Below, one piece after another: positions 5,583-20,425 of a stretch of 20,729 bases of DNA. The position numbers and the translations under genes were made by a program. This DNA comes from a virus, in IMG/VR virus record IMGVR_UViG_3300020417_002118, positions 1 to 20,729 of that record; one strand, written 5' to 3'. Each line of letters starts with the position of its first letter. Position 1 is the first letter of the stretch. The notes beneath the pieces are model-generated. The model did no database searches and was not told the origin of the DNA. It saw nothing but the letters and a program-made list of their open reading frames with translations.

Positions 5583-6114
5583 TAAAGTCCCCTACAGAAA
5601 AAACATCAACAGTTACGACTACTTCGGCACTTCTTAGTTTCAACAGTATACTATAAAAGCAACCACCTAGCCCATCTCCATCAGAAATAATGGTCATTAT
5701 TTCCCCTTCACACCCCTTAAAGTCCCCTTCTATGATCTCTACAAAGTCTCCCTCTTTGTACCTCCCACCCAAGCTGTAAGCTTCTCTTACCATTTCCTTT
5801 AGTTCAGAATCTAAGATCGTACCCTGAGAGATCATGTCGCTACTACGATCATAACGACTGATCATTGTTTCGATGAAAATTGACCTAGAAATGTCGTAAT
5901 ACTTCGTAGTTGGATAGCCCGACTTAACAAAGATATAGCCCTCAACTAAAAATGTAGCCTTGCTCGAACCACCTCTTAAAACAGGGACATAAATATCTTC
6001 TATTTCTATCCCCGACAGGTTACTAAGGACTTTCGCTAGAGTTCCTGCTCTTGCTTCCTCCTCACCTTTGAGGGTAGTTGTCATTACTACCCAAGTCGGT
6101 TGTCTTTGTCTCAA
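5575..6114 (-). CDS. NusG/Spt5-like transcription elongation factor
   Basis: The protein has 179 residues with two recognisable parts. An NGN-like domain spans about 5-85: the WVVMTT strand, a Glu-rich first helix, the 'IYVPVLRGG' segment and the 'VEGYIFVKSGY' strand. A KOW motif spans about 119-142 (YKEGDFVEIIEGDFKGCEGE). NusG-family proteins bind the RNA polymerase clamp and affect pausing, termination or antitermination. The start is TTG at 6114: AAGGGAG lies seven bases upstream and this start keeps the whole NGN strand. The ATG at codon 11 would remove it. The gene overlaps the 3' end of dnaX by 53 bases and the start of the sigma-like gene by 8. It is probably a phage-specific elongation or antitermination factor, but this is inferred from the family. 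Confidence 0.8.
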   Translation of the reverse strand: MRQRQPTWVVMTTTLKGEEEARAGTLAKVLSNLSGIEIEDIYVPVLRGGSSKATFLVEGYIFVKSGYPTTKYYDISRSIFIETMISRYDRSSDMISQGTILDSELKEMVREAYSLGGRYKEGDFVEIIEGDFKGCEGEIMTIISDGDGLGGCFYSILLKLRSAEVVVTVDVFSVGDFNG

Positions 6115-7384: not shown

Positions 7385-7397
7385 TTGTCCTCACACA

Positions 7398-7428
7398 AGT
7401 AAGTGGGTTTGTTCACTTACTCATATAA
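7398..7428 (-). promoter_or_regulatory. TATATG element and hairpin upstream of dnaX
   Basis: On the minus strand, TTATATG (7422-7428) is followed at once by AGTAAGTG and CACTTACT, a perfect 8-base inverted repeat (7414-7421 and 7398-7405) with an 8-base loop. The dnaX ribosome site and ATG come next. The hairpin does not cover the ribosome site. It may be a promoter with an operator, or a 5' hairpin on the transcript. Confidence 0.4.
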
Positions 7429-7430
7429 GA

Positions 7431-8414
7431 TTACATGAATATTGACCACCGAACTGTCTCATTTAATGGGTTAGAAAATGAAACACGGAAGCCCGTAGTT
7501 GTTCGATTTGAAATGACGGGAATTTCTCTCTGAGAGTTATCTTCAAAAAGAACCATGTATTGATCGGTACTTAGAGGGCAAGTAAATGTAATATCTACCA
7601 CATCTTCAGCTTGGAAAGCTCGACCACCCACAATCTGACTCTTAGTTAAAGCCGAAGCGTTGTCTCCTGCGTAGACAGCAAGCCTACCCTCCACAGAAAC
7701 CTCAGAACCTACTAAAGTGATACCAACCGTTTGGTTTGCTGAAATGTGGCTCATTGAAATGAGGTTAGTCAACTCTACTTCGGGACACACAGAGCAGCTA
7801 TTTAATAAGAATCTTGTAGCAGAAGAAATAGAAATCTTCCCAATCCCTGTAAACAAGGTGTTCGATACAATAACTTCTGCTTGAGAACTAGTGATGAACT
7901 CAGCATTAGCGTGTCCTGAAATATCTAAAGAGCAACCCTTCAATGTGGTCGGATAAGAAGCCAACCCATCTGATGTTATTTCTATAGCTGAGGGGTTGGT
8001 ATTTCCTAACTGACTCTTAACTACCAAGTTGAATCCGTCTAAAACCACCGAAGCACTCGAAATAGAAATACAAGATGTATCTGTAGACTCAATATTAACG
8101 GCACCTCTTGAGAGAAAAACAACAGGCTTTGAAATAGTGATCTGCTCAGCGTAAGTACCTCCATAAACAATCACTGTCCCTCCCTCTGTAGGGAGTGAGT
8201 CAACTGCGCTTTGGATAGTGGAGTAATCTGAGCCTAAAAGAGACTTAGATACTGTGGCGAAGTTATCCAAACCTCTCTCTGTTATAAGTGTGCTTAGAAG
8301 AATTGAACCAATGTTTGGGTCATATAAACTAAGACTAGAGCCTGCACCTCTTGTAATGTGCGGAGAGTTGTCAGAGAAACCTAATTGTACTTTGTCTGCT
8401 TTTAACGGATTCAT
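7431..8414 (-). CDS. Right-handed beta-helix (tail-spike-like) protein
   Basis: The product has 327 residues. Residues about 64-100 match the entry to a pectate-lyase or pectinesterase-type parallel beta-helix: the STIQSAVDSLP helix, then GGTVIVYGGTYAE and 'ITISKPV'. Short, regular Ile/Val/Ser-rich strands follow to about 260. Residues 270-327 form a separate C-terminal domain with YMVLF (286-290) and NRTTTGF (303-309), shared with the small protein at 4355-4768. The N-terminal 60 residues may attach it to the virion. This layout fits a tail spike or accessory fibre that binds or cleaves surface glycan. No catalytic residues can be assigned. ATG at 8414 has AGGAG at short spacing, and the 5' leader can fold over that site. 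Its place among replication and transcription genes is unusual for a structural gene. Confidence 0.72.
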   Translation of the reverse strand: MNPLKADKVQLGFSDNSPHITRGAGSSLSLYDPNIGSILLSTLITERGLDNFATVSKSLLGSDYSTIQSAVDSLPTEGGTVIVYGGTYAEQITISKPVVFLSRGAVNIESTDTSCISISSASVVLDGFNLVVKSQLGNTNPSAIEITSDGLASYPTTLKGCSLDISGHANAEFITSSQAEVIVSNTLFTGIGKISISSATRFLLNSCSVCPEVELTNLISMSHISANQTVGITLVGSEVSVEGRLAVYAGDNASALTKSQIVGGRAFQAEDVVDITFTCPLSTDQYMVLFEDNSQREIPVISNRTTTGFRVSFSNPLNETVRWSIFM

Positions 8415-8417
8415 ATT

Positions 8418-8462
8418 GCTCCTCTTTCTGAATGATTGTCTATGTGAAAGAGGGGCTATATA
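8418..8462 (-). promoter_or_regulatory. TATATA promoter candidate and RBS-hiding hairpin before the beta-helix gene
   Basis: On the minus strand TTTATATA (ending at 8457) is followed directly by CCTCTTTC (8446-8453), which pairs perfectly with GAAAGAGG (8421-8428). Two more G-C pairs lie beyond one mismatch. The 3' arm contains the AGGAG ribosome site of the gene starting at 8414. A transcript starting 6-8 bases after the TATATA would lack much of the 5' arm, so only read-through transcripts would be fully folded. Confidence 0.5.
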
Positions 8463-8471
8463 AAAGAGGTA

Positions 8472-8957
8472 CTATTTACTTTGCCTCTTGAGTGCTCTTT
8501 GGACTCCCCTATAACAAGAAATGCGATCTGAATATCCTGCTATTTTAGCGATCTGACCGTAAGTCATTTTTGTGGTTAATCTGAGCCTTAATGCGAAGTC
8601 TCCCTGATCATGTTTAAAAGGTTCAGGCAGTCCTCTGTCTTCACAAAATCTTCTGATACGAAAGTACACTTTATCTTTGTGGAGGCTCATAAGCTTACCA
8701 ATGTCTTTTACGCTCATACCATTCTTATAAAGCGCATGAAGGTACTCACCATTTCTCCTTCTACGAGGTAAAGGAAATGGTGAGGATGTGAGCCTAGCAT
8801 ACTTCCTAGCTTGATATGTCGCCTGCCTACTAGAGATACCCAAAGCTCTACCTATTTCTCTGTAGGTCATGCCTTGGGAGTACAGAGAATAGGCTTCAAA
8901 GCAAAGAGTGTCTATCAGTCCTCCCAAATCTGATCCCACCAACAAGCGCAGTCCCAT
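8472..8957 (-). CDS. DNA-binding protein with three tandem helix-turn-helix units
   Basis: The 161-residue basic protein contains three similar HTH units spaced about 50 residues apart. They are at about 23-55 (SLYSQGMTYREIGRALGISS), 73-105 (ALYKNGMSVKDIGKLMSLHK) and 123-157 (RLTTKMTYGQIAKIAGYSDR). Each has a 'G/K-M-(T/S)-(Y/V)' turn before the helix, so they look like internal duplications. A basic linker (PRRRR, 64-68) joins units one and two. The gene overlaps the end of the amidase gene by 43 bases. ATG at 8957 has only a weak ribosome site. It is probably a transcription regulator or small sigma-like factor. Targets cannot be inferred. Confidence 0.65.
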   Translation of the reverse strand: MGLRLLVGSDLGGLIDTLCFEAYSLYSQGMTYREIGRALGISSRQATYQARKYARLTSSPFPLPRRRRNGEYLHALYKNGMSVKDIGKLMSLHKDKVYFRIRRFCEDRGLPEPFKHDQGDFALRLRLTTKMTYGQIAKIAGYSDRISCYRGVQRALKRQSK

Positions 8958-9865
8958 TTCTTTCGGGTAATGTGATGATGACCAATAACACCCGTAAAGC
9001 TACCCGTAAGGTAGTCTTTATCTACCACTCCATGATAGAAATCCCCATCATAAGATTGTCCGTCAGAACCTCTAGGGCATTGATAAGGAATGTCGAGAAC
9101 ATCACAGAGAGATTTAATCGCTTCTTTGACAGCGAGAGCTACTCTTGGGTCAAGACTTAAAACCCTTTTATCTCCTCGACCTGTATCATTGTCGATCACT
9201 GAAATGTCGTAGCTCTTTTTAATATAGTGGTCTTTCCATTTCAAGCTCGGTTGCTGACAAATATCAATACCTACAGAATAAGAGTTCGCCCAACCTGCGT
9301 GCCAGCTTTTATGGTGGAGGTCGAGATACTGATAAATGGTAGGCTCTCCATCGGAGCTTACACCAATCCCTGCATGAGAGCTTACCTTTCGGTCAGGGCT
9401 TGAGAATACCCGATGACAATGAACAGGGTCTAATCCTCCCCAATGAACCACGATCATTGTAGGTCGTTTCCCTTTGCGACTTGAGAAATGACCGAACCTA
9501 TGGAGATCAAGCCCTCCTCTTTGGTCGAAGTTCACGGTCTGAACATCAGAATCAATATCTACATTAATGCGCCTATCGTTCAATGTCCAAAAAGGTTGGG
9601 TATCATCTACATGATCGAACTTTTTAAGAAGAGCTGACCATGTACCTCTGCCAAGCTTACCATCAACGTGGCTTCCTGCACCAAAGGTGTCCTCTTGAAA
9701 TGCCTCTACAGCAAGAGCGAACTCATTACTATCATAAGGCATACACAAATTCTGATATGTATCTAAAGCACTCTGCGGAATGTTCCCACCCCAACCTACG
9801 CTTTGAGACGCTTTTGCGTTATATGCACAGGCACTTTTTCTTGATTGAGTTATGGTACTCGACAT
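8915..9865 (-). CDS. Endolysin: N-acetylmuramoyl-L-alanine amidase with peptidoglycan-binding domain
   Basis: The 316-residue protein probably cuts the amide bond between N-acetylmuramic acid and L-alanine to lyse the host. A PG_binding_1-like segment lies at about 48-82 (AVEAFQEDTFGAG, then VDGKLGRGTWSAL). An Amidase_2/PGRP domain covers about 130-316. Likely zinc ligands are His141 (IVVHWGG), His296 (GHHHIT) and Asp305 or Cys306 (KKWDCA), with Lys303 near the active site. The family's 'WHAG' motif is at 188-191, followed by 'SVGIDI'. No signal peptide is visible, so export would need a holin or similar; none is identified here. ATG at 9865 has AAAGG eight bases upstream. The gene is divergent from the chaperonin gene with only 27 bases between starts. 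Confidence 0.88.
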   Translation of the reverse strand: MSSTITQSRKSACAYNAKASQSVGWGGNIPQSALDTYQNLCMPYDSNEFALAVEAFQEDTFGAGSHVDGKLGRGTWSALLKKFDHVDDTQPFWTLNDRRINVDIDSDVQTVNFDQRGGLDLHRFGHFSSRKGKRPTMIVVHWGGLDPVHCHRVFSSPDRKVSSHAGIGVSSDGEPTIYQYLDLHHKSWHAGWANSYSVGIDICQQPSLKWKDHYIKKSYDISVIDNDTGRGDKRVLSLDPRVALAVKEAIKSLCDVLDIPYQCPRGSDGQSYDGDFYHGVVDKDYLTGSFTGVIGHHHITRKKWDCACWWDQIWED

Positions 9866-9892
9866 CTCTTAAACCTTTCTGAGAGGATATAA

Positions 9893-11260
9893 ATGAGTTT
9901 CCGACAAATGATACCCGATATAGAAGAAATATCATCACTATTAGTAATCTCTCACGCTTCTAGTGGTAAAAGTATCGCAATCACTAGAAATAATCAGCAT
10001 TTTTCTAATCTTTCAGCTAAGTCTACTCTGAACGAGTGGACTCCTAGACATAAATTAGTCCAAAGTGCTTTACTTGATGTGGTAGGAAGCGGAGATGGAG
10101 GTAAGTTAGGGTCTTTTATCACCATTTCTTTGATCAGGTCTTTAGCAAAGCATAAACATGGGGGACACCCTGACCTCACAAAAGAAATACTCTCACATTT
10201 AGATGAAGTAATCGCTAATATTTCTGAGAAATCTGTAGAGTCGAAGAAAGAACATCTAATATCAGTAGGTGAAGATTTAGATTTTGCAGACCAACTTGCA
10301 GACGCAGTATTTCTAGGTGGCGCAGAAACTCACATATCATTGGAGAGGTATGGAGGAACAGGTTGTGAAGTAATAGAGTCAGAAAGTTTACTGACAGAAG
10401 CTCGACCTTTACATATTTCTGAACAAGTTTCCTTGAAAGGTTCTATGGTCGCTTTACTCCCAACTAGAGTATCTAGCTTTAAAGATGTAGCAGAGCCTCT
10501 TGAGCTTATGGGTACTTTCCCAAACAGACCTCTAGTTATTATCGCCCCTATGATGAGAGGAGAAGCTCTCGCTACGATTAAGAGAAATAGAGATGAGGGT
10601 GTTGTTGAAGTGTATGGGGTCGAGGCTCCTTTAGTTACTTGGGGCAAAGGGTGGTTAGAAGATGTAGCTTCTTTTACGGGGGGTACTTTATACGACTCAT
10701 TTCTTCATTCAGAGTTCAAACCCTATATGTTCGGCTCTGCTAGAGAGATCACACTCAAAAACAAAGAAATGATTATCGACCCTTATGATGATCACGCTGA
10801 AGTTACAGCCGAGCGCATTTCCCAACTCTTATATGAGGCGAACAACTCCCCTCACTCACATACCCAAGACTTGTGGAGGAAAAGAGCGGCTTCTTTGGGA
10901 GGAACTTTGATCAGAGTCAAGGTCGGAGGTACTACAGAAGCGGAAGCAAGACTTCGTAGAAATAAAGCTGAGAAAGCCATGCTTTCGATGGGTATGATGT
11001 TGGAGGGAGGTCATGTCGAAGGAGCTATCCCGACACTCTCAGAAATAAAAGGAATACACCCTATAATAGATAGGGCTTTAGTCGCTCCTCTTAGAGTAGT
11101 TGCGATCAATAAGAGACTTAACACCTTGGAACAAGCGAAGAAATGTTCTCCTAAACTGTACGAGCCTTTCCCTCTTACAAGACTTCTTTCTTTAGTTCGA
11201 TCTAGTTTCTCAGTCGCCACAACCATTTGTAGCGTAGCAAGGATAATAAATAAGAAATGA
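9893..11260 (+). CDS. groEL: Shortened GroEL-like chaperonin, apparently without ATPase residues
   Basis: The 455-residue protein (GroEL is about 548) is collinear with type I chaperonin. Matching segments are SGDGGKLGSF (66-75, GroEL's GDGTTT loop), the apical-domain RPLVIIAPMMRGEALATI (212-229), VEAPLVTWGKGWLEDVASF and TGGTLYD (243-268), the intermediate-domain 'RAASLGGTLIRVKVGGTTEAE' region (331-351), and the C-terminal PLTRLLSLVRSSFSVATT (427-444). Conserved ATP-site residues are lost. The DGTTT threonines are Gly-Lys-Leu. The catalytic Asp398 position is Lys361. The region holding Asp495 is deleted. The N-terminal strand is also trimmed. ATG at 9893 has GAGGA at good spacing. Phage GroELs are known (for example in phage EL), but this looks like a degenerate form that could act as an ATP-independent holdase, a modifier of host GroEL, or a repurposed ring protein. 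Confidence 0.82.
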   Translation: MSFRQMIPDIEEISSLLVISHASSGKSIAITRNNQHFSNLSAKSTLNEWTPRHKLVQSALLDVVGSGDGGKLGSFITISLIRSLAKHKHGGHPDLTKEILSHLDEVIANISEKSVESKKEHLISVGEDLDFADQLADAVFLGGAETHISLERYGGTGCEVIESESLLTEARPLHISEQVSLKGSMVALLPTRVSSFKDVAEPLELMGTFPNRPLVIIAPMMRGEALATIKRNRDEGVVEVYGVEAPLVTWGKGWLEDVASFTGGTLYDSFLHSEFKPYMFGSAREITLKNKEMIIDPYDDHAEVTAERISQLLYEANNSPHSHTQDLWRKRAASLGGTLIRVKVGGTTEAEARLRRNKAEKAMLSMGMMLEGGHVEGAIPTLSEIKGIHPIIDRALVAPLRVVAINKRLNTLEQAKKCSPKLYEPFPLTRLLSLVRSSFSVATTICSVARIINKK

Positions 11261-11658
11261 GAAGTAGAAGAATTAACTACAGAAGTGTATCAACCCCAAA
11301 AGACCTCGAAGTCTTTGAATGGGCTTTGATTGAGGGAGACTCAGTAAAGAATGCCTTTCTTGAGGGTAAACAACGCTATCTATTTCTTAGGGAAGCTAAA
11401 CGCTACTACATTCTCCCATCTGAAAGAACTCCTCTAACTAAAGAGGAAGGGATTATAGAGATGAGGTCGATTGAGGTAATTCAGCTTCCAAAGTCCTACG
11501 TTCTCGTAATAATCTTATCCTCAGATACGTTTTTGTTCTTCACGGACAGAGTAAACCCTCATAGGAAATTGCTTGATCAAGTAATCTCCGAATATGAGGC
11601 AGAGGGTATTATTTCCGAAGAACTATTGAGTAAATACCATAGCTTAGAAGGGTTTTAA
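11257..11658 (+). CDS. Hypothetical protein, 133 residues
   Basis: The start ATG overlaps the chaperonin stop (ATGA), so it is translationally coupled to it. A weak AAGGA lies 13 bases upstream. The N-terminus is very basic. The middle has strand-rich segments (YLFLREAKRYYILP, then 'VLVIILSSDTFLFF') and the C-terminus has an acidic helix (about 105-133). There is no signal peptide. I do not recognise a family. The coupling hints at a function with the chaperonin, which is inference only. Confidence 0.65.
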   Translation: MRSRRINYRSVSTPKDLEVFEWALIEGDSVKNAFLEGKQRYLFLREAKRYYILPSERTPLTKEEGIIEMRSIEVIQLPKSYVLVIILSSDTFLFFTDRVNPHRKLLDQVISEYEAEGIISEELLSKYHSLEGF

Positions 11659-11673
11659 GAAAGGTAAATACCG

Positions 11674-12252
11674 ATGATAGAAATAAAGATTGGCGATTGT
11701 GCAGAAAGACTCAAAGACCTAGAAGATAACTCGGTTGACGCTATTATTTCTGACCCTCCCTATGGACTCAAGTTTATGTCAAAGGGTTGGGACAATATCG
11801 GTGAGGGTAGTCAACAAAGAGAATGGCATAGGAAATGGCTGACTGAAGCTCACAGGGTGTTGAAACCCAACGGAGTGATCAAAGCTTTTAGTGGCTCAAG
11901 AACTTTCCACCACCTGATAGCTATGATGGGAGAAATAGGTTTCTCAGACTTGAGGGTAGAAGCATGGACTTATGGTTCGGGCTTCCCCAAGTCTTTAAAT
12001 GTAAGTAAAGCGATAGACAAAAGTTTAGGTGCTGAAAGAATCGTAGTAGGTACACAAAAGATGTCAGGCACTGCCCGTAAGATTAAAGGTACGAATAAAC
12101 ATGGTGGAAAGATGGCAGGCATTGACCAAGAGTATGAAGAGACAAGTATTGAAATAACAGTTTCATCAAGCAAAGAAGGTAAACAATGGGAGGGTTGGGG
12201 TACTGCGCTCAAACCCTCTTGGGAACCCATTTGTATAGGAGTTAAGAAATGA
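11674..12252 (+). CDS. DNA methyltransferase N-terminal (catalytic) half, copy A
   Basis: The 192-residue product matches only the first half of a beta-class N4-cytosine/N6-adenine DNA methyltransferase. It carries catalytic motif IV as SDPPYGLKFMSKGWDNI (DPPY at 27-30), then KPNGVIKAFSGSRTFHHL (64-81), YGSGFPKS (100-107) and the WGTALKPSWEPI segment near the C-terminus. The SAM-binding motif I (DPFxGSGTTG) is absent and is supplied by the gene at 13147. Residues about 108-168, the presumed target-recognition part, differ from copy B (12569-13147) while both ends are nearly identical. ATG at 11674 has AAAGG nine bases upstream. The stop overlaps the next start (ATGA). The usual fused protein continues with RKPL, which is exactly where the next gene picks up. 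Confidence 0.85.
   Translation: MIEIKIGDCAERLKDLEDNSVDAIISDPPYGLKFMSKGWDNIGEGSQQREWHRKWLTEAHRVLKPNGVIKAFSGSRTFHHLIAMMGEIGFSDLRVEAWTYGSGFPKSLNVSKAIDKSLGAERIVVGTQKMSGTARKIKGTNKHGGKMAGIDQEYEETSIEITVSSSKEGKQWEGWGTALKPSWEPICIGVKK
11704..11756 (+). repeat. Direct repeat, copy 1 of methyltransferase duplication
   Basis: These 53 bases are identical to 12599-12651, an offset of exactly 895 bases. The offset also separates the two start codons (11674 and 12569). The surrounding similarity covers about the first 320 bases of each gene without insertions, then stops at the variable segment and resumes at the 3' ends. Confidence 0.9.
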
Positions 12253-12572
12253 TCATCACTATCCTTAGAAAACCTTTAGATGGTAGCGTGGCTGACAACA
12301 CCCTTAATCATGGGTGTGGGGCTATAAACATAGATGACACTAGAGTAGGCGATATAGTCCAAGACACGTCTAAGAATGGAAGATCGCCCACTTCACATAA
12401 AGCGACAGTCTTCCAATCGGGCTTAAAAGAGAGCTTCGTAGGTCAGATGACCGTAGGGAGATGGCCTGCTAACTTTATCCTTAAAGGCGAAAAGGCTATT
12501 GAAGCTCTCGATAATAAAAGTGAAAAAAGCTCAGAGTTCTTCAAGCAGTTTAAGGAAGATAATGACCAATGA
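12249..12572 (+). CDS. Methyltransferase linker segment as a separate gene
   Basis: The 107-residue product corresponds to the middle of fused phage and bacterial methyltransferases of this family. RKPLDGSVADNTLNHGCGAI (7-26) with NIDDTRVG, and later GRWPANFIL (70-78), are typical of that linker. It has its own ribosome site (AGGAG, 7-base spacing) and overlaps copy A by 4 bases (ATGA) and copy B by 4 bases (ATGA). It has neither DPPY nor the SAM motif and cannot be an enzyme alone. It may be a structural piece of a multi-subunit enzyme, or a remnant of the fused gene. Its intact frame and ribosome site favour expression. Confidence 0.65.
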   Translation: MIITILRKPLDGSVADNTLNHGCGAINIDDTRVGDIVQDTSKNGRSPTSHKATVFQSGLKESFVGQMTVGRWPANFILKGEKAIEALDNKSEKSSEFFKQFKEDNDQ

Positions 12573-13147
12573 TAAAAATAAAGATTGGTGATTGCACTGA
12601 AAGACTCAAAGACCTAGAAGATAACTCGGTTGACGCTATTATTTCTGACCCCCCTTATGGACTCAAGTTTATGTCCAAAGGTTGGGATAATATCGGAGAG
12701 GGTAGTCAGCAAAGGGAATGGCATAGGAAATGGTTAGTGGAATCATATCGAGTTCTTAAACCTAACGGAGTGATCAAAGCTTTCTCAGGGTCTAGGACAT
12801 TTCATCATCTAATAGCGATGATGGAAGAAATAGGTTTCTCAGACTTGAAGGTTGAGGCTTGGGTTTACGGTTCGGGCTTTCCTAAATCCCACAACCTCGC
12901 TAAACAGTTTGAAAAAAAAGCAGGGGTTGAGGGCGAAGTAATTGGCTATTCTAAAGGAGTTTCCGTTGAAGACTCTCAAGGGTATGGTGGGATTGGTCGA
13001 GGTGCTGTGGGCATTGTTCAAAAAGCCGTAGACCTACCAATCAGAGCATTAGTTACTGAAGAAGCTAAAACATGGAATGGTTGGGGTACTGCTCTCAAGC
13101 CCTCATGGGAGCCTATTTGCATTGGAATTAAGAAAGGAAATAACTAA
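12569..13147 (+). CDS. DNA methyltransferase N-terminal (catalytic) half, copy B
   Basis: It has the same length (192 residues) and layout as copy A, with DPPY at 27-30, FSGSRTFHHL and YGSGFPKS. By hand alignment about 8 of the first 107 residues differ. Residues about 108-168 are different (for example GYGGIGRGAVGIVQ against the GTNKHGGKMAG region in A). The ends converge again at WGTALKPSWEPICIG. This is the pattern expected of two specificity variants. The start overlaps the linker gene (ATGA), with AAGGA 12 bases upstream. The stop overlaps the next start (TAATG). It lacks motif I, so SAM binding must come from the downstream subunit. Confidence 0.85.
   Translation: MIKIKIGDCTERLKDLEDNSVDAIISDPPYGLKFMSKGWDNIGEGSQQREWHRKWLVESYRVLKPNGVIKAFSGSRTFHHLIAMMEEIGFSDLKVEAWVYGSGFPKSHNLAKQFEKKAGVEGEVIGYSKGVSVEDSQGYGGIGRGAVGIVQKAVDLPIRALVTEEAKTWNGWGTALKPSWEPICIGIKKGNN
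12599..12651 (+). repeat. Direct repeat, copy 2 of methyltransferase duplication
   Basis: These 53 bases are identical to 11704-11756. Together with the flanking similarity they could support recombination between the two gene copies, deleting or exchanging 895 bases. Confidence 0.9.
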
Positions 13148-13956
13148 TGGAAGAAATGATCGAATACTTCAAAACAATGATTACACCTCCCGTAGAAGAC
13201 GCTTGTATTATCGTAGGGAAGCCATCAGAAATAGATTACGAAAAGTATCGTATCATCGAGGGTAATAGTATCGTACCACTCTACGATCCTGTCGCTCATG
13301 GAGCTATCCTGTTAGATGAGCCTACTGAAGAAGAATCACAAAAGCTCATGGCTATTCTAAAACCTGGCGCACACATCGTACTTATACCTAAAGACATAGG
13401 GTACAAAGGTGTGATCGCTCTTGAAGACCAAGGGTTTGAAGTGAGAGACGCTATCTTTGTAGGAGAAAACTCTGAGGAGTTTCATTACACCTCTAAAGCG
13501 AGCCGATCTGAAAGAGAAGCAGGCTTAAAAGGGTTCAATAAAAAGGACAGCTCGGAGATGACAGGTCGGAAAGAAAACTCTAAAGGTTTGATGAGAGTTA
13601 GAGAAGACGGTTCGGTAGGCACAAACCCCTATGCAGGCACAGCAGGAGGTCAAAACCCAAGAGCAAACATTCACCCTACAGTCAAACCAATCGACATTAT
13701 GGAGTGGTGTGGTCGAGACATAGCCCCTAACTCTAAAGTCGTAGACCCATTTCTTGGAAGCGGTACTACGGGTATAGCTATGAGCCGTTTAGGACATGAC
13801 TTTGTGGGTATAGAGCTGAACCCCGAATATGCAAAGATATGTGAGGGTAGGATTAGACATTGGATGCCTATCGGCTCAGAAATAGTATCGGAAGCTGAGG
13901 TTGGTAAAGCCGAAGCTCAAGAGGGTGATACTATTTCCATCTTTGACTTGTTTTAG
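13147..13956 (+). CDS. DNA methyltransferase C-terminal (SAM-binding) half
   Basis: The 269-residue product carries the second half of the beta-class enzyme: TSKASRSEREAGL (115-127), NIHPTVKPIDIMEW (174-187), SAM-binding motif I DPFLGSGTTG (200-209) and VGIELNPEYAKI (220-231). Its first 110 residues look like a decayed N-terminal half: ILLDEPT (54-60) sits where DPPY would be, followed by LKPGAHIVLIPKD and ALEDQGFEVRDAIFV. Without DPPY it should be inactive alone and needs copy A or B. The ATG at 13147 has AAAGGA eight bases upstream and is coupled to copy B by TAATG. The C-terminal tail is acidic. It converges with the minus-strand gene at 13964 across seven bases without a visible terminator. 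Confidence 0.85.
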   Translation: MEEMIEYFKTMITPPVEDACIIVGKPSEIDYEKYRIIEGNSIVPLYDPVAHGAILLDEPTEEESQKLMAILKPGAHIVLIPKDIGYKGVIALEDQGFEVRDAIFVGENSEEFHYTSKASRSEREAGLKGFNKKDSSEMTGRKENSKGLMRVREDGSVGTNPYAGTAGGQNPRANIHPTVKPIDIMEWCGRDIAPNSKVVDPFLGSGTTGIAMSRLGHDFVGIELNPEYAKICEGRIRHWMPIGSEIVSEAEVGKAEAQEGDTISIFDLF

Positions 13957-13963
13957 TCAGTGC

Positions 13964-14530
13964 TTAAGAAATTCTAAAGTAACCTTTAGTTGGGCTGTAA
14001 ACTGACCCTAAACTACTCAGACGAGACATGAGTCCATCTTGGATAGCACTTAAGTATTCCTCAAGTGTCTCAAAGCCATCTTCTCTCGCCCATACATTAA
14101 AGTTTCTGACGGGGGTAATCGTAATCTGAGTCATACCACTATAAAGAGAGCTTTTTTCTTTTTGTGCGTCTACATCAACACCTAGACTTGAAGAATGTAG
14201 CCAATACCTCTTAGAAGACACTGAAGTGTGCATGATTATTTCTTCTTTGGTGTTTTTTTCAATGATTATATTTGGGAGTTGCAACTCTTCAGGCGTTTCC
14301 AATTCAACGATTAACCCACTGTTGTTAATTCTAATGCTGTATTCCCACCCCATCTGATCAATGAAAGATTCAATCCTTATGGTTAATAGGCGAAGATCTC
14401 TTAGGTCTAAAGAAATGCCTGTAAAACGAAGTGTCAGACTTGATTTCTCTATGTGAGTTTCGAGTGATCTACCAAAAACTTTTTTAGCTTTTAGTGCTAC
14501 TTGGTCATTAAAGTTTTCCATCATTTTCAT
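13964..14530 (-). CDS. Hypothetical protein, about 188 residues
   Basis: I do not recognise a family. The start is taken as ATG 14530, which overlaps the upstream stop (ATGA). The ATG at 14524 is better spaced from AGGA and is a close alternative. An in-frame TTG at 14566 has no support. The protein has an N-terminal helix with basic residues, a strand-rich centre, and a C-terminal part rich in Ser/Tyr/Phe with 'EDGFETLEEYLSAIQDGL' as a clear helix near 150-170. There is no membrane segment. It is coupled with the Cys-His-Asp protein gene upstream. Confidence 0.65.
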   Translation of the reverse strand: MKMMENFNDQVALKAKKVFGRSLETHIEKSSLTLRFTGISLDLRDLRLLTIRIESFIDQMGWEYSIRINNSGLIVELETPEELQLPNIIIEKNTKEEIIMHTSVSSKRYWLHSSSLGVDVDAQKEKSSLYSGMTQITITPVRNFNVWAREDGFETLEEYLSAIQDGLMSRLSSLGSVYSPTKGYFRIS

Positions 14531-14970
14531 AGTCCTGTCTTTGTTTTGAGTTCCCACGGACCCCAATGCCCATGCGCTGAGATCATTTCTGAGAATGTAG
14601 GTTGGTCATAAATATGAATGTTAGATAAACGATCTACTTGACCTAGAGCATAATAAACACGCTTGTCGATTTTGATTTCTCTACCATTAGAGAAATCGAG
14701 TACCTCCCCACCGTCTTCACACCAACAATGCCCGTAGGAAATGCCTTGCAGTTCGCCTTGACCCATGACCTCCCCATGAACAAGTCTGAGGTTGGGGTTT
14801 CGATAAGCATTGTCCATAAAGTATTTCCCATTAGCTCTGTAACAATCGCCAAAACTAGAGGCGAGCTTCCTCATTTCAGAGGGTCTAACCCGTATCTTCT
14901 TCTTGGGGAGTTCATCAAAGATTTCTAATCCCTCTAAGTATCTACTCGCTATTACTTCAGATAGTTTCAT
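14527..14970 (-). CDS. Phage protein with a Cys-His-Asp papain/transglutaminase-like pattern
   Basis: The 147-residue product has GDCYRANGKYF (Cys43), YGHCWCEDGGEVLDFS (His81 and Asp92), and later YYALG (106-110). This order (Cys at a helix start, then His and Asp in neighbouring strands) matches a recurrent small phage family that looks like transglutaminase or papain-fold enzymes. Whether it is active, and on what, is unknown. No signal peptide is seen. ATG at 14970 has AAAGGAG nine bases upstream. It is divergent from the resolvase gene and shares the TATATA region with it. Confidence 0.6.
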   Translation of the reverse strand: MKLSEVIASRYLEGLEIFDELPKKKIRVRPSEMRKLASSFGDCYRANGKYFMDNAYRNPNLRLVHGEVMGQGELQGISYGHCWCEDGGEVLDFSNGREIKIDKRVYYALGQVDRLSNIHIYDQPTFSEMISAHGHWGPWELKTKTGL

Positions 14971-14990
14971 CAGATTTATCTCCTTTATCG

Positions 14991-14997
14991 TATATAT
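14991..14997. promoter_or_regulatory. Shared TATATA promoter candidate between divergent genes
   Basis: CGTATATATCTAG lies in the 59 bases between the divergent starts at 14970 and 15030. The core is palindromic and lies at a workable distance from both genes. It could serve as a -10-type or T4-late-type element for either strand. No -35 element is evident. Confidence 0.45.
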
Positions 14998-15029
14998 CTA
15001 GTAGCCATAAACAAAGAAAAGGAGGTCGA

Positions 15030-15683
15030 ATGATACTTGGTTTAGACCCCTCACTCAGAAACTTTGGGTGGGTTCTCATGGAAGACGACGGTCATTTCTT
15101 AGATAAAGGAATGATGTCTACTAAGGCTGACATGATGTTTGTCAGTCGCTATGTATTTCTCCGAGATGGCTTGAGAGAAATAGTCCGAACAATCAGATCG
15201 AACTACCCTGACAAAGTTCTTAGAGTTGGAATAGAAAGTCCCATCTTTAATGACTTGTACTCAGAGGGTATGTATGGTCTATTCCTCTACTCAAACGAAG
15301 CTCTCATGCTTGAAAAGTGCGATACTGTTTACTTAACCCCTAACCAAGTCAAAGCCCATGCCCATGCATTTCTTAATAGACCTAAAGGTTGGAAAATGCA
15401 GAAAGGCGATATGGTTGAAGCTGTTAAACAAGCAACAGAGGGTCAAGGCGCAAAGCGTTGGAATCATCACCAAGCAGACGCTTATTGGGTCGGTAGAACA
15501 GCAGGTCGTTTTTGGAAACTTGTTGAAGGTGAAATAGAAATTTCTGATCTATCAGAGTTGGAAAAAAGGCACTTCACTGACTACGAGAAATATGTGAGAG
15601 GTAAGAAAGCAGGGAAAGTCAAACGTAAAGGTATTACTTACAAAGAGAATGATAGATTTTTCAGATGGTCTGAAGAAAGTTAG
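15030..15683 (+). CDS. RuvC-like Holliday junction resolvase
   Basis: The 217-residue protein has the RNase H-fold pattern of RuvC: ILGLDPSLRNFGWVLME (Asp6) at the start, VGIESPIFND (Glu69) and HHQADAYWVG (Asp150). These acidic residues would bind metal to cut branched DNA in recombination or before packaging. RuvC itself is about 170 residues; here there is a C-terminal basic extension (about 185-217, rich in Lys/Arg). ATG at 15030 has a strong AGGAGG site. It heads the recombination block and follows the TATATA element at 14991. RuvC-like resolvases also occur as phage packaging helpers. Confidence 0.85.
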   Translation: MILGLDPSLRNFGWVLMEDDGHFLDKGMMSTKADMMFVSRYVFLRDGLREIVRTIRSNYPDKVLRVGIESPIFNDLYSEGMYGLFLYSNEALMLEKCDTVYLTPNQVKAHAHAFLNRPKGWKMQKGDMVEAVKQATEGQGAKRWNHHQADAYWVGRTAGRFWKLVEGEIEISDLSELEKRHFTDYEKYVRGKKAGKVKRKGITYKENDRFFRWSEES

Positions 15684-15702
15684 TCTCAGACTCAAAAATT
15701 AC

Positions 15703-15708
15703 TATATA
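15703..15708 (+). promoter_or_regulatory. TATATA promoter candidate before recA
   Basis: ACTATATACA lies in the 66-base gap between the resolvase stop and the recA start, 42 bases before the ATG. It matches the element seen before several other genes here. No hairpin over the recA ribosome site was found. Confidence 0.4.
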
Positions 15709-15749
15709 CAACACTTATCCACTCCATCATGCCTCGAAAGGAAATATTC

Positions 15750-16943
15750 ATGGCAAAATCAAAAGGAAATAAAACCACTAAAAAGAAACCAAAGACAGAC
15801 CTTCTTGCCGCAGCTAAAGCAGTTGCAGGCGCACTTAAAGAAGACCACGTTGTTTCTCTCGACCCGAACAGTCTGAAAGTCAGTCGCCCTCACATTTCTA
15901 CAGGTTCTGTGGCTCTCGATTATCTCATCGGAGGTAAAGAGAATGAACACGGTGTGCGCCCCTGTCCTGGCATTCCTAAAGGAAATATTACCAACCTTTA
16001 CGGACTCGCAGGTGCAGGTAAAACCACAATCGCTCTCCAAACTGCCGCTCAGACTTGCGCTGAGGGTGGTACTTGCGTCTATATAGATTGGGAGCATGAG
16101 GTCGATCACCGCTATGCGGCGAGCTTAGGTGTCCCTGTTTCTGACCCGACTAAATTTATGCTCATTCAGCCCGATACTCTTGAGGCAGGTCTGCGCTATA
16201 TCTTTACGATGACAGAAGCAGGTGTTGACCTCATTGTGATCGACAGCGTGGGCGCCGCAGTCCCTAAAGCTGTGTTTGAAAAGAACGATGACGGTCCCAC
16301 TCCCGTAGGTCTTAATGCTCGTCTGTGGAGTACATACTTGCCCAAGATCAAGTCAAAGATCAAAGGCAGTGAAACTGCTATCATTGGTATTTCTCAGCTT
16401 CGTGAGTCCATCGGTGGTATGTCATTCGCAGGTCCAAAGAAAATCCCTCAAGGTGGTAAGGCTTGGACATTCTACTCTACTCTTCAGATTATGCTCCGTG
16501 TAGTCGGTAAAGAGAAAGGCAAAGAGTGGGACGGTATGCAGGGCAAAGCTGTCGAAACGGTTCTTGGTACTTGTGTGAGAGCGAAGCTCGATAAGTGTAA
16601 AGTCTCAGACTCAGCGCATAAAGAGGTAGACTTCTATCTCATGTCGGGTGAGGGTGTCGATAATGTCCGTACTATTCTTGAGCTTGGTATAAAGACAGGT
16701 ATTGTGAAGAAAGGTGGGGCTTGGTACTCATGGCAGAGCGGTGATGGTGAGGTTCGTGGTCAAGGCTTAAATAACTTCAAAGAGTCTTTGACAGATGAGC
16801 ATATCGCAAGCATTTTCGCTCAGGTGAAGCCTTATCTCGCAGACCCTAAGAAGAAGACAGAAGAAGAGCCTCCAAGCCTTGAGAGCCTTGCCAAGCTCGA
16901 TGGTTCAGATGAAGACTTCTTAGCGAGTTTAGAGGACTTATAA
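15750..16943 (+). CDS. recA: RecA/UvsX-type recombinase
   Basis: The 397-residue protein catalyses homologous strand exchange on single-stranded DNA. The Walker A is YGLAGAGKTT (84-93), the catalytic Glu lies in IDWEHEVD (112-119), and Walker B is LIVIDSVGA (161-169). The 'IIGISQLRES' strand with its Q corresponds to the RecA NQ(L/I)R region. The C-terminal tail is acidic (SDEDFLASLEDL), as in RecA and UvsX, and may bind partner proteins. An upstream in-frame ATG at 15729 is rejected because AAGGA sits seven bases before 15750. Arginine codons are nearly all CGT or CGC, unlike neighbouring genes that favour AGA. The stop overlaps the next start (TAATG). Confidence 0.93.
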   Translation: MAKSKGNKTTKKKPKTDLLAAAKAVAGALKEDHVVSLDPNSLKVSRPHISTGSVALDYLIGGKENEHGVRPCPGIPKGNITNLYGLAGAGKTTIALQTAAQTCAEGGTCVYIDWEHEVDHRYAASLGVPVSDPTKFMLIQPDTLEAGLRYIFTMTEAGVDLIVIDSVGAAVPKAVFEKNDDGPTPVGLNARLWSTYLPKIKSKIKGSETAIIGISQLRESIGGMSFAGPKKIPQGGKAWTFYSTLQIMLRVVGKEKGKEWDGMQGKAVETVLGTCVRAKLDKCKVSDSAHKEVDFYLMSGEGVDNVRTILELGIKTGIVKKGGAWYSWQSGDGEVRGQGLNNFKESLTDEHIASIFAQVKPYLADPKKKTEEEPPSLESLAKLDGSDEDFLASLEDL

Positions 16944-17197
16944 TGAAGATTTTAGTTCTCGTCTTCTTAATTACTCTGCTGTGTGGCTTCCTCTCTTACG
17001 GAAAGCCGATTGACAGTGTTGAGATCATCGTCTGTAAAGACAATGAGAAGCGACTTTTCTTTGCAGGTGAGTTGCCTCACTTTAGGAAGTATAGAGAAGT
17101 ATTTAATCAAGATACTTGTAAGGTTCAAACCATGACTCTGAGGAAATGGCAAAGAATACTTTCCTCATACCAAAAACGATCTGTCAAAACTCCTTAA
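16943..17197 (+). CDS. Small exported or membrane-anchored protein
   Basis: The 84-residue product starts with Lys and then a hydrophobic stretch (3-19, ILVLVFLITLLCGFLSY), so it is either secreted or anchored by its N-terminus. The remainder is basic, with Cys31 and Cys59 possibly forming a disulfide outside the cytoplasm. No good lipobox is visible. The start overlaps the recA stop, with GAGGA at good spacing. Small envelope proteins of phages may act in lysis, superinfection exclusion or host modification. Which applies here is unknown. Confidence 0.65.
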   Translation: MKILVLVFLITLLCGFLSYGKPIDSVEIIVCKDNEKRLFFAGELPHFRKYREVFNQDTCKVQTMTLRKWQRILSSYQKRSVKTP

Positions 17198-17202
17198 AGT
17201 CT

Positions 17203-17235
17203 TATATATTCTCCAACACGAAAGGAGGATATATG
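17203..17235 (+). promoter_or_regulatory. TATATA promoter candidate overlapping an RBS- and start-hiding hairpin (Rad50 gene)
   Basis: TATATATTCTCC (17203-17214) pairs with GGAGGATATATG (17224-17235) at all 12 positions, two of them G-U, with a 9-base loop. The 3' arm contains the GGAGG ribosome site and the ATG. The 5' arm is also the presumed promoter TATATAT, so a transcript starting just downstream would lack it. Confidence 0.55.
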
Positions 17236-18363
17236 AAGCTAAAAGTTGAGAACTTTCAGTCCATTAAAAGTGCAGAGATCGAAGTTGATGGTCTGACTGT
17301 AATAACGGGTGAAAACAGTATCGGCAAATCTGCTCTCGCAAGAGCTTTCAATGGGGTCTTCACTAACTTAAGAGGAGACGCTCATGTGAGAAATGGTGAG
17401 AAGCATTCGACTGTATCTGTCGTCTTTGACGATGGCAACGAGGTTACTTGGGAAAAAGGTAAGAAAAAGAACCGATACGTTGTCAACGGAAAGGAAATAG
17501 ATAAGGTGGGTACGGGAGTGCCTGATGAAGTTAAAGCACTAGGGGTTACCTCCGTAAAGGTAGACGGTAAAGATGTTTACCCTCAGATAGCAAAGCAGTT
17601 TCAGAATATATTTCTGATTGACTTACCTCCTAGTGCTTTATCGTCTGCTCTTTCAGATGTTGAGTTAATACACCAACTTGAAGAAGCCTCAGCTAAAGCT
17701 CGGTCTGAAATAAGAGACACTAAGTCTCGGCTAAAAGTTAAAAGAGAAGACCTTAACACTGCTCAAAATAATCTCTCTATGTATGAAGACTTTGACCCTC
17801 TAAAGTTAGAAGAATACGAGCAAGCAGAACAAGCTAAAGAGACAGCGATTACTAACCTAAGCAAAGCAGAGTCTCTTGTTCAGAAGAAAGAGAAGGTGGG
17901 GAAAGCATACGAAGTCCTAGAGGAAGTGTTGACTGTATCTCTCCCTACTTTAGACCTCTCAGAGTTTGATAACTTAAACCAACTTATTTCTCTAAACAAG
18001 CGCAGGAAAGCCTTGACCAAAGCTGTCGAAGCACTTGGAGAAATAGAAACCTGTGAGGTGAGTAAAGCTCCCGAATTTCCTAATGTGGGTGAACTAGAGC
18101 GCATACAAACAAAGCGAAATAAGTTAGAAAGTGCGATTCAGATTTTAGACCCCTTAAGCAAAGTAGTATTAAGCACTCCCCCTCAAGACAACTCCGATAT
18201 AATTAATAGTCTAGTGAGGAAGAAGAAATTGACTCTAGGTATAAGCCTTGCGGAAGAAGAAATAACCAAAATTGACTCTGAACTAGAGTCTGTCCAAGAG
18301 AAGATTAGAGAGGGAGTATGCCCCGTATGTTTAAGAGGAGGAAATGACAAATGCCACGACTGA
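17233..18363 (+). CDS. sbcC: Rad50/SbcC-like ATPase, N-terminal half ending at the zinc hook
   Basis: The 376-residue product has the N-terminal lobe of an SMC/Rad50-type ATPase: MKLKVENFQSIKSAEIEVDG, Walker A GENSIGKSA (26-34), then a long coiled coil (about 150-355). It ends with CPVC (363-366), the Rad50 zinc-hook motif, and a further CH pair just before the stop. The second coiled coil, signature motif and Walker B of a complete Rad50 are absent, and the next gene is Mre11 rather than a continuation. The true start is ATG 17233, supported by AAAGGAGG; an in-frame ATG at 17146 lies inside the previous gene. With Mre11 it should process DNA ends for RecA. Either a second gene supplies the other lobe, or it acts as a half ATPase. 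Confidence 0.85.
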   Translation: MKLKVENFQSIKSAEIEVDGLTVITGENSIGKSALARAFNGVFTNLRGDAHVRNGEKHSTVSVVFDDGNEVTWEKGKKKNRYVVNGKEIDKVGTGVPDEVKALGVTSVKVDGKDVYPQIAKQFQNIFLIDLPPSALSSALSDVELIHQLEEASAKARSEIRDTKSRLKVKREDLNTAQNNLSMYEDFDPLKLEEYEQAEQAKETAITNLSKAESLVQKKEKVGKAYEVLEEVLTVSLPTLDLSEFDNLNQLISLNKRRKALTKAVEALGEIETCEVSKAPEFPNVGELERIQTKRNKLESAIQILDPLSKVVLSTPPQDNSDIINSLVRKKKLTLGISLAEEEITKIDSELESVQEKIREGVCPVCLRGGNDKCHD

Positions 18364-19325
18364 TATGGAGAACTGATGTCCACATGGGAGATCGAACCCC
18401 TAGAAGACGAACAGGTAATTGGTCAGAAGACGTTGCTAAAAAATTAAGATGGATAGGGAAGAAAGCGGAGGAAATAAAAGCTGACGCTGTGATTGATGGT
18501 GGAGATTATTTCGATGTGAAGTCTCCCGTTAAAAACTCACATGGCCTTGTCCGATTGTCCTGTGAAATACACTCAGAATACCCATGCCCAACCTACGCTC
18601 TAGTGGGCAATCACGATGTGAAATATGGGAATATTGATTACTTACCTGAACAACCTCTTGGGGTCATGTTTTCTTCGGGGGTCTTCAGGCAGTTTGGCGA
18701 TGACGAGGAAATAATCTTAGAGGGAGACGGTGTAAAGGTTAGAATCGTTGGAGTCCCCTATCATGGAGTCGAGTATGACTTTGATCGTATTGCTAACATT
18801 TCTAAGAAAGACGAAGACTACTTAATCGTTGCTTGTCATCTTCTAGCTAGAAAGGGCAAAACAGGCTCGATGTTTGAGGGTGAAGACATTATTGGCTACG
18901 ACTTTCTCAATAAGAATACTGAGGTGAACGCTTGGATGTTTGGTCATTGGCATAAAGACCAAGGCATTTCTAAACTTAAAAATGGCGCAATCGTAGTCAA
19001 CGTAGGTTCGCTTACTAGAGGCTCGCTCCACCTCGATGACTTAGATAGAAAGCCCTGTATCGTGGAAATAGAAGCCACCAAGAAAGGGCTAAACTTCAAA
19101 AGGCATAACGTACCCGTCAGACCTGCTTCCGTAGCGTTTAAGATTGATGACGCTAAAAGAGAGCATGAAGACGTTGACCGTATGGAAGAAATAGTTGAAA
19201 AGATGAAGTCTGTCGTTACTGAGGGTTGGGCAGGTAAATCTCTCATTGATAAGGTGAGAGAAATGAAAATCCCTAACGATGTTAAAGAGCAAACTATTTT
19301 ATACTTGGAAAGTGTAAACAAGTAA
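18351..19325 (+). CDS. sbcD: Mre11/SbcD-like DNA exonuclease subunit
   Basis: The 324-residue protein is a calcineurin-like metallophosphoesterase. Metal-binding motifs appear in family order: TDVHMGD (Asp9, His11), DGGDYFD (Asp52), VGNHD (85-89), ACHLL (His163) and FGHWH (197-201). A C-terminal capping or DNA-binding part follows (about 225-324). It is the partner of the Rad50-type ATPase in DNA-end resection, like T4 gp47. It overlaps that gene by 13 bases and has AGAGGAGG nine bases before its ATG. No frameshift is seen. Confidence 0.9.
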   Translation: MPRLIWRTDVHMGDRTPRRRTGNWSEDVAKKLRWIGKKAEEIKADAVIDGGDYFDVKSPVKNSHGLVRLSCEIHSEYPCPTYALVGNHDVKYGNIDYLPEQPLGVMFSSGVFRQFGDDEEIILEGDGVKVRIVGVPYHGVEYDFDRIANISKKDEDYLIVACHLLARKGKTGSMFEGEDIIGYDFLNKNTEVNAWMFGHWHKDQGISKLKNGAIVVNVGSLTRGSLHLDDLDRKPCIVEIEATKKGLNFKRHNVPVRPASVAFKIDDAKREHEDVDRMEEIVEKMKSVVTEGWAGKSLIDKVREMKIPNDVKEQTILYLESVNK

Positions 19326-19342
19326 TTCTAATCATTAAACAG

Positions 19343-19376
19343 TCCTATATATACGTCTTGCTTCGGTAATATAGGA
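19343..19376 (+). promoter_or_regulatory. TATATATA promoter candidate overlapping an RBS-hiding hairpin (nuclease gene)
   Basis: TCCTATAT (19343-19350) pairs perfectly with ATATAGGA (19369-19376) around an 18-base loop. The 3' arm takes in the first part of the AGGAGG ribosome site of the gene at 19385. The 5' arm overlaps TATATATA (19346-19353), so transcripts from this promoter would lack the arm. Confidence 0.5.
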
Positions 19377-19384
19377 GGAACTAA

Positions 19385-20365
19385 ATGAGGCAGGACAATG
19401 AAGATATGAAATACATTTATTGGTCGCATATTAAGATGATGAGGGAGTGTCCTCAACGCTACTTGTGGAGCAAAGGACACCCCGACCATGACCTTGGTGC
19501 AGGTATCGGGAAAAAGAAGCCCCTACCTCCTGAAAATCAGCGTGAGTCTGAACACCATCTCCTCATGGGTTCTGTCCTGTCGAAAGTAGTTGAAGACTTT
19601 TACAACCATGAGCTTTGGAGTGAGCCTAAGACTTTACAAGATAAGCTAGAAGACTTAGCCCGAAAAGAGTTCGTTTTCCAAGAGCAACGCTACTATTGCT
19701 TGTGGAATTATATGACTCGTGATGAAGCAATAGATGTAGTGGTGAGCGGTGCTTCCAACTTCTTGAAGATTATGAAAGAGAATAGACTGCTCGGAGTGTG
19801 GAACAAATCTGAACTAAAGATGACCCCCTCCGTGAACAAGTATTTCTCAGCTTCGGGTATCGCTGACCTTGTGTATAGAGACAAGGAAGATCGTATTCAT
19901 ATTCTTGACGGTAAAAACGCTAGTACCCCTGGAAAGTATGAAGACCAAGATCAGCTCCGTTGGTATGCGCTGTGTTTCAGACTACAGTACAACGTCATGC
20001 CTCACCGTCTCGGTTTCTTCTATTTCCGTTATCCCTCAGACATATTACCTAATATGAAGCACGTTCCTGAGAAATATCAAGGCGATAAATGGACAGGCTT
20101 CATGGAAGTCGATTTCACAATGGCTGATATTAAGAGATTAGCCGCTGAAGGGGTCGAGACTTCTAAAGCAATCCATCGAGGTGTCTTTGAAGCGAACCCA
20201 ATGCCTAAGCACTGTAGAACTTGCCCTTATGAGTCGGTGTGTGAGGAAAGACAAGAGCAGAAAGCTAGAAATGCCGCTAAGCGAGGATTAAGAAAGACGA
20301 AGACCCCCGACCCAACAGAGGGAAATGATGGTTTTGTCGATCTTTCATTTGGTTCAAAAACTTAA
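19385..20365 (+). CDS. PD-(D/E)XK nuclease, Cas4/RecB-like, with probable Fe-S cysteines
   Basis: The 326-residue protein has the nuclease core: ASGIADLV (Asp161), ILDGKNAS (Asp175 and Lys177) and the QLRWYAL helix (Gln190). Cys22 in RECPQRYLW and a C-terminal cluster CRTCPYESVC (Cys277, Cys280, Cys286) are placed like the four ligands of the iron-sulfur cluster of Cas4 and AddB. The tail from about 290 is basic and then acidic. Phage proteins of this type usually act as exonucleases in recombination with RecA, Mre11 and Rad50. There is no CRISPR array or other cas gene here, so a CRISPR role is not suggested. ATG at 19385 has GGAGG at good spacing; a second ATG at codon 8 is possible. Confidence 0.85.
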   Translation: MRQDNEDMKYIYWSHIKMMRECPQRYLWSKGHPDHDLGAGIGKKKPLPPENQRESEHHLLMGSVLSKVVEDFYNHELWSEPKTLQDKLEDLARKEFVFQEQRYYCLWNYMTRDEAIDVVVSGASNFLKIMKENRLLGVWNKSELKMTPSVNKYFSASGIADLVYRDKEDRIHILDGKNASTPGKYEDQDQLRWYALCFRLQYNVMPHRLGFFYFRYPSDILPNMKHVPEKYQGDKWTGFMEVDFTMADIKRLAAEGVETSKAIHRGVFEANPMPKHCRTCPYESVCEERQEQKARNAAKRGLRKTKTPDPTEGNDGFVDLSFGSKT

Positions 20366-20385
20366 CCAGCAGACTCGACTTTTCT

Positions 20386-20425
20386 GATATAGAGAAGTAA
20401 ACCTTTTTAACACTAAAGGAGTGTT
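20386..20425 (+). promoter_or_regulatory. TATA element and a small hairpin with the ribosome site in its loop
   Basis: GATATAG (from 20385) lies 36 bases before the GTG start at 20428. AACACT (20409-20414) pairs with AGTGTT (20420-20425), leaving AAAGG of the ribosome site in a 5-base loop. It is a weaker member of the pattern seen before other genes. Confidence 0.3.

Follow-up and report, generated by a model that had tools for sequence, protein, structure and literature searches.

Hairpins over the ribosome site as probable T4-type translational switches in the leaders of three genes from a different phage group

The leaders of three phage genes (8414, 17233 and 7384) are probably translational switches of the T4 type, for which we infer the promoters, transcript starts, read-through RNA and effect on translation, and the reading that fits best is silencing of read-through RNA as in T4, in a different and little-known group of large phages. 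The genes lie on a stretch of 20,729 bases (hereafter the window) of the IMG/VR viral record IMGVR_UViG_3300020417_002118. RNA reading through from the same-strand gene upstream would fold such that the ribosome site pairs with a 5' arm, the start codon also being paired in the case of 17233. This 5' arm would lie inside the gene's own promoter or directly behind it, and RNA made from that promoter would lack most or all of the arm and be translated; release of the ribosome site would require a start about 6–12 nt past the promoter motif. Gene 8414 would be expressed only when a class-L promoter (TA-N5-TTTAT) is active, and 17233 and 7384 only when a replication-class promoter (TCTKATATR, class M) is active. 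An initial annotation of the window had proposed a T4-like timing switch at several leaders. The arrangement stood at 8414, 17233 and 7384, on the evidence of the hairpins, their release on truncation, covariation at 17233 and an excess of such hairpins in the relative G001, and fell at 19385 and 20428.

We calculated, leader by leader, the free energy needed to free the Shine-Dalgarno sequence (the opening cost). In genome-wide controls the upstream part of the leader was shuffled or exchanged with that of other leaders, and each window leader was compared with dinucleotide shuffles and with swapped leaders, 1000 of each. Divergent gene pairs were kept apart because their facing ribosome sites are complementary and inflate hairpin counts; at two such pairs in G001 (77642/79315 and 95750/96190), the facing sites form long palindromes that could be mistaken for regulatory hairpins. 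An EM motif search that took in the final 20 nt settled on the Shine-Dalgarno sequence and was repeated with that stretch masked. As a positive control, the T4 genes e (14.2), I-TevII, I-TevI, segB and 49 ranked at or near the top of the late-motif leaders, and 6/23 of these leaders reached at least 8 kcal/mol by the same method (0.7 expected); soc and I-TevIII were missed. The resulting ranking of T4 hairpin genes agrees with the literature (PMC3014915, PMC2988022).

Genes in the window are associated with recombination and replication (RecA/UvsX, RuvC-like, SbcC/SbcD-like, PD-(D/E)XK nuclease and clamp loader), and the window also encodes one protein like sigma region 4 and one with weak similarity to NusG/LoaP. 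Two very similar methyltransferase-like open reading frames (11674–12252 and 12569–13147), separated by a short frame, have the appearance of a duplicated gene, or of one split as well as duplicated. The window had no near match among named phages. Viral contigs yielded 25 related recA loci (59–100% identity), on contigs including G001 (275 kb), one of 84 kb, G003 (45.8 kb) and G004 (21.9 kb), and G006 (177 kb) was reached as a relative via the clamp-loader gene. A simple home-made caller supplied the genes of G001, G006, G003, G004 and G008, the last of which is distant.

When opening costs were set against shuffles and swaps, the proposed leaders of 8414, 17233 and 7384 stood out, while those of 19385 and 20428 were at chance level. 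The features of the 8414 leader are as follows:

7431–8414, minus strand: gene 8414, encoding 327 amino acids, no family match
8460–8471, minus strand: class-L promoter-like motif TA-N5-TTTAT (TACCTCTTTTAT), a de novo motif in G001 and G006 leaders
8446–8453, minus strand: 5' arm (CCTCTTTC) of the hairpin, 8 core pairs
8421–8428, minus strand: 3' arm (GAAAGAGG) of the hairpin, overlapping the Shine-Dalgarno sequence AGGAG at 8419–8423

The eight core pairs (8446–8453 with 8421–8428) are supplemented by outer pairs, and the opening cost of 12.8 kcal/mol was reached by 3/1000 shuffles and 1/1000 swaps. Read-through RNA, for which the same-strand gene upstream is 8472–8957 (minus strand), takes 11.5–12.8 kcal/mol to open, compared with 1.3 kcal/mol for RNA begun 6 nt past TTTTATATA. 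The hairpin is retained in the nearest relative, L029 (64% protein identity, 8.5 kcal/mol); the orthologues in G001 and G003 are without it.

The leader of 17233 differs in that its 5' arm overlaps the promoter motif:

17233–18363, plus strand: SbcC-like ATPase gene 17233 (PF13476, 8e-10; phrog_77, SbcC-like)
17200–17208, plus strand: class-M promoter-like motif TCTTATATA, conserved in L002 and L003
17202–17214, plus strand: 5' arm TTATATATTCTCC of the hairpin, overlapping the motif
17224–17236, plus strand: 3' arm GGAGGATATATGA of the hairpin, holding the Shine-Dalgarno sequence and the ATG

The helix, initially placed at 17203–17235 with 12 pairs, is real and includes the ATG, but comprises 13 pairs (17202–17214 with 17224–17236). 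Its opening cost of 12.3 kcal/mol, reached by 11/1000 shuffles and 23/1000 swaps, falls to a calculated 2.1 kcal/mol in RNA begun 6 nt past the motif, and the same-strand gene upstream lies at 16943–17197 (plus strand). All 13 pairs are intact in the window, L002 and L003, the three closest phages, despite differing arms, with compensatory changes at two pairs (A-U/A-U/G-C and U-G/A-U/U-A); slid registers pair to 36–72% only. This covariation is supportive, not overwhelming, because it comes from three sequences and 46/500 column shuffles were as good. Among 17233 orthologues, seven distinct leaders (window included) have ribosome-site hairpins of at least 7 kcal/mol, and those of the more distant L019, L021, L022 and G006 (7.3–9.3 kcal/mol) are built from unrelated arm sequences. 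In five other orthologue leaders (L012–L018), an intrinsic terminator takes the place of the hairpin at this junction, as if hairpin and terminator were interchangeable insulators. The orthologues in G001, L009, L011 and L025 had neither.

Persistence of pairing while arm sequences vary between genes and orthologues bears on the suggestion that the arms are DNA palindromes with the role of operator or promoter component (hairpin promoters), or are terminators of the upstream gene, which we consider very improbable. Arms do overlap promoter motifs, as that suggestion would have it, but arms that differ in sequence and keep their pairing therefore offer no common operator, and the 3' arm runs into the start codon with no T-run after it, contrary to a terminator.

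Silencing of read-through RNA is likewise the probable role of the hairpin before the clamp-loader gene:

6062–7384, minus strand: clamp-loader (DnaX-like) gene 7384 (PF13177, 5.5e-23; phrog_5846, 1e-50)
7422–7430, minus strand: class-M promoter-like motif TCTTATATG
7414–7430, minus strand: 5' arm of the hairpin, containing the motif, 17 pairs
7389–7405, minus strand: 3' arm of the hairpin, covering GAGG

Of two cases initially described as weaker, that at 20386–20425 did not hold, but that at 7398–7428 proved stronger than stated, with a 17-pair helix that includes several G-U pairs. The opening cost (6.6 kcal/mol) was reached by 24/1000 shuffles and 45/1000 swaps, and beginning the RNA 6 nt past the motif lowers it from about 6.0–6.6 to 1.0 kcal/mol. 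The same-strand gene upstream is 7431–8414 (minus strand). The hairpin is kept in L029 and is weaker in the G001, G003 and G006 orthologues, the range including the window being 5.0–6.6 kcal/mol.

Four further leaders, two of them with a claimed hairpin, were at chance level:

19343–19376, plus strand: class-M motif (19343–19351) and 8-pair helix before 19385, at chance level and not conserved
20383–20391, plus strand: class-M motif TCTGATATA ahead of 20428, without a hairpin switch linked to the promoter
15700–15708, plus strand: class-M-like motif TACTATATA before recA (15750), no hairpin
14988–14996, plus strand: TCGTATATA, located between 14970 and 15030, which diverge

Opening costs were 1.6 kcal/mol for 19385 (reached by 919/1000 shuffles and 752/1000 swaps), 5.2 kcal/mol for 20428 (271/1000 and 184/1000), 6.6 kcal/mol for 15030 (221/1000 and 196/1000) and 1.6 kcal/mol for 15750 (952/1000 and 720/1000), and truncation past the motif left those of 19385 and 20428 unchanged. 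The complementarity at 15030 is a trivial one, with the facing ribosome site of its divergent neighbour 14970. For 19385, the arms are not complementary in the 90%-identical L027, an outcome that the initial annotation had named as counting against its reading. A block before this gene, (C)TTCGGTAnTrTAGGAGG (window 19355–19378), is conserved in phages of 66–100% identity although the helix is not.

Strong hairpins were in excess genome-wide in two relatives: 10 leaders in G001 reached at least 10 kcal/mol (0.8 expected by swapping) and 16 in G006 reached at least 8 kcal/mol (4.4 expected), with stems that run to 15–21 consecutive pairs. At the threshold of 8 kcal/mol, the G001 excess was found in same-strand leaders with TA-N5-TTTAT (11/36, 1.9 expected, maximum of 5 in 60 swaps), compared with 0/57 same-strand leaders without the motif and only 3/27 motif leaders behind a divergent gene, at least one of the three being a palindrome of facing ribosome sites. 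G006 showed an excess as well (6/35 vs 2.5 and 7/45 vs 1.5 expected), and at 10 kcal/mol the two genomes pooled gave 12/71 leaders with the motif and 3/102 without (p = 0.0019). There was no hairpin excess in the 45 kb relative G003, and neither motif nor hairpin excess in G008, which is too distant. Scans for relatives of the G001 hairpin genes 67644 and 188096 gave only G001 itself and one identical record. A repeated element, GTTGAGGTATTGGTGAGGTA, also occurs upstream of about nine genes in G001 (L041–L054).

These counts weigh on the idea that pairing arises by chance from composition, A/T-rich promoters and C/T-rich leaders meeting purine-rich ribosome sites, and has no function. That is the case for 19385, 20428, 15030 and 15750; furthermore, ATAAAG-type ribosome sites can pair with the class-L TTTAT itself, and the facing ribosome sites of divergent genes produce trivial palindromes. 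However, the G001 swaps were made among motif leaders, preserving both composition and motif, and still left 11 hairpins against 1.9 expected, and 8 against 0.2. The compensatory changes at 17233 also speak against chance. Chance is disfavoured for 8414 and 17233, and we judge it improbable as a general account.

By calculation, hairpin leaders retained on average 45% of the opening cost with RNA begun 7 nt past TTTAT, 37% at 9 nt and about 25% at 11–12 nt. The G001 hairpins lost more strength on promoter truncation than chimeric ones, i.e. swapped leaders forming hairpins by chance (p = 0.004 at +7 and 0.0002 at +9); in G006, release was no greater than for chimeric hairpins. When start positions were permuted among leaders of the pooled set, +7 was not significant (412/2000) and p = 0.004 was obtained only at +10. 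It is conceivable, if unlikely, that the hairpins persist in mature mRNA and regulate it otherwise, as RNA thermometers, 5'-end stabilisers or binding sites for a phage translational repressor, for example a RegA-like one: a start 5–7 nt past TTTAT leaves, on average, about half of the cost in place, the G006 leaders 37241, 115554 and 92162 retain nearly all of theirs, and the weak hairpin of 20428 is unaltered by truncation. Such roles sit poorly with the restriction of the G001 excess to same-strand motif leaders, given its low frequency in divergent ones, and with the 5' arms at 17233 and 7384, which contain the motif itself, such that promoter-derived RNA cannot form the hairpin.

The TATATA-like elements noted before 7384, 17233, 19385, 20428, 15030 and 15750 were confirmed as recurring motifs at the same genes in relatives, 24–45 nt ahead of the start in orthologous leaders. 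The single TATATA late promoter envisaged for them gave way to two motif classes, TA-N5-TTTAT and TCTKATATR. The former (class L, represented by 8414) was found de novo independently in G001 and G006, also when training used hairpin-free leaders only, and its genes in G001 include structural ones for the baseplate and tail, those for ribonucleotide reductase and a helicase, and many of unknown function. The latter (class M) is matched by 17233, 19385, 7384 and 20428, which fit TC[TC][GT]ATAT[AG], and the recA element is a close variant; in G001 the pattern precedes genes for DNA polymerase, helicase, exonuclease, DprA-like protein, RecA, nuclease and clamp loader. The class-M motif (17233, 7384, 19385 and recA) is a mark of replication and recombination genes, and a 'late' label is therefore unsupported for 17233 and 7384. 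Early or middle timing appears at least as likely as late for class-M genes, and late timing is plausible for 8414 only.

Two window proteins are candidates for a part in this transcription:

5013–5582, minus strand: candidate transcription factor that resembles sigma region 4 and has two helix-turn-helix domains; conserved among the relatives
5575–6114, minus strand: NusG/RfaH/LoaP-like protein, weakly matched in NCBIfam (LoaP 1.6e-4, UpxY 9e-5) and short of the curated cut-offs

The phage late sigma factor that had been suggested was not recovered: no Pfam sigma region 2 was found in three relatives (G001, G006 and G003), and the 5013–5582 protein matches region 4 only, in profile searches and in its predicted fold (mean pLDDT 77, partial fold matches only), with region 2 not detected and no sequence match in the PDB. 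This protein may be a transcription co-factor. Searches made without a positive control gave no match for T4 gp55 in the same three genomes and none for the T4 major capsid protein gp23, and an RNA polymerase beta' subunit was not found in three relatives. The 5575–6114 protein could be an antiterminator and thereby the source of read-through RNA. We tentatively raise a genome-wide translational insulation shared by a whole clade of large phages, in which the NusG/LoaP-like antiterminator would generate long read-through RNA and promoter-embedded hairpins, or terminators at the same junction in other members, would silence each downstream gene, replication and structural genes alike, until its own promoter fires.

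The arrangement is best known from T4, and in T4 and related phages it was worked out one gene at a time. Here, sequence analysis alone points to it in phages whose promoters are different, at T4-like frequency and with dependence on orientation and motif. This suggests that it is a general solution to leaky termination in the genomes of large phages. It also makes it possible to test for promoters and timing classes in uncultured phages using nothing but sequence.

T4 (NC_000866) also has strong ribosome-site hairpins in early-promoter leaders, with the 5' arm between the -35 and -10 boxes; examples, all on the minus strand, are 53885, 62740 (regB), 13130 (modB), 130253, 8161, 123032, 15232 and 136275 (alc). 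Among same-strand T4 leaders without the late motif, 8/95 reached at least 8 kcal/mol (1.2 expected). We know of no report of hairpins in T4 early-promoter leaders.

In IS10/Tn10, transposase RNA entering from outside is subject to fold-back inhibition. As in the window, the ribosome site is hidden in outside RNA and not in RNA from the element's own promoter; however, IS10/Tn10 is a transposon guarding against host transcription, whereas here a set of phage genes is involved. The jumbo phage AR9 has its own promoter system and multisubunit RNA polymerases (PMC5312081). The phages studied here resemble it in being large and having short promoter motifs of their own, and differ in that no beta' subunit was found in three relatives. 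The closest parallels are the promoter-in-hairpin genes e, soc, 49, segB and the homing-endonuclease genes I-TevI, I-TevII and I-TevIII of T4, and mobE of Aeh1 (PMC3014915, PMC2988022). Shared with T4 are a promoter, here a promoter-like motif, within or beside the 5' arm, a ribosome site in the 3' arm, a same-strand gene upstream, a calculated release of the ribosome site in RNA begun past the motif and a comparable proportion of motif leaders whose hairpins reach at least 8 kcal/mol (6/23 in T4, 11/36 in G001). Unlike T4, the motifs are TA-N5-TTTAT and TCTKATATR and not the late promoter TATAAATA, the distance from motif to start is longer (about 40–47 nt, 24 at 17233, vs 13–29 nt in T4), and replication and recombination genes also carry such hairpins.
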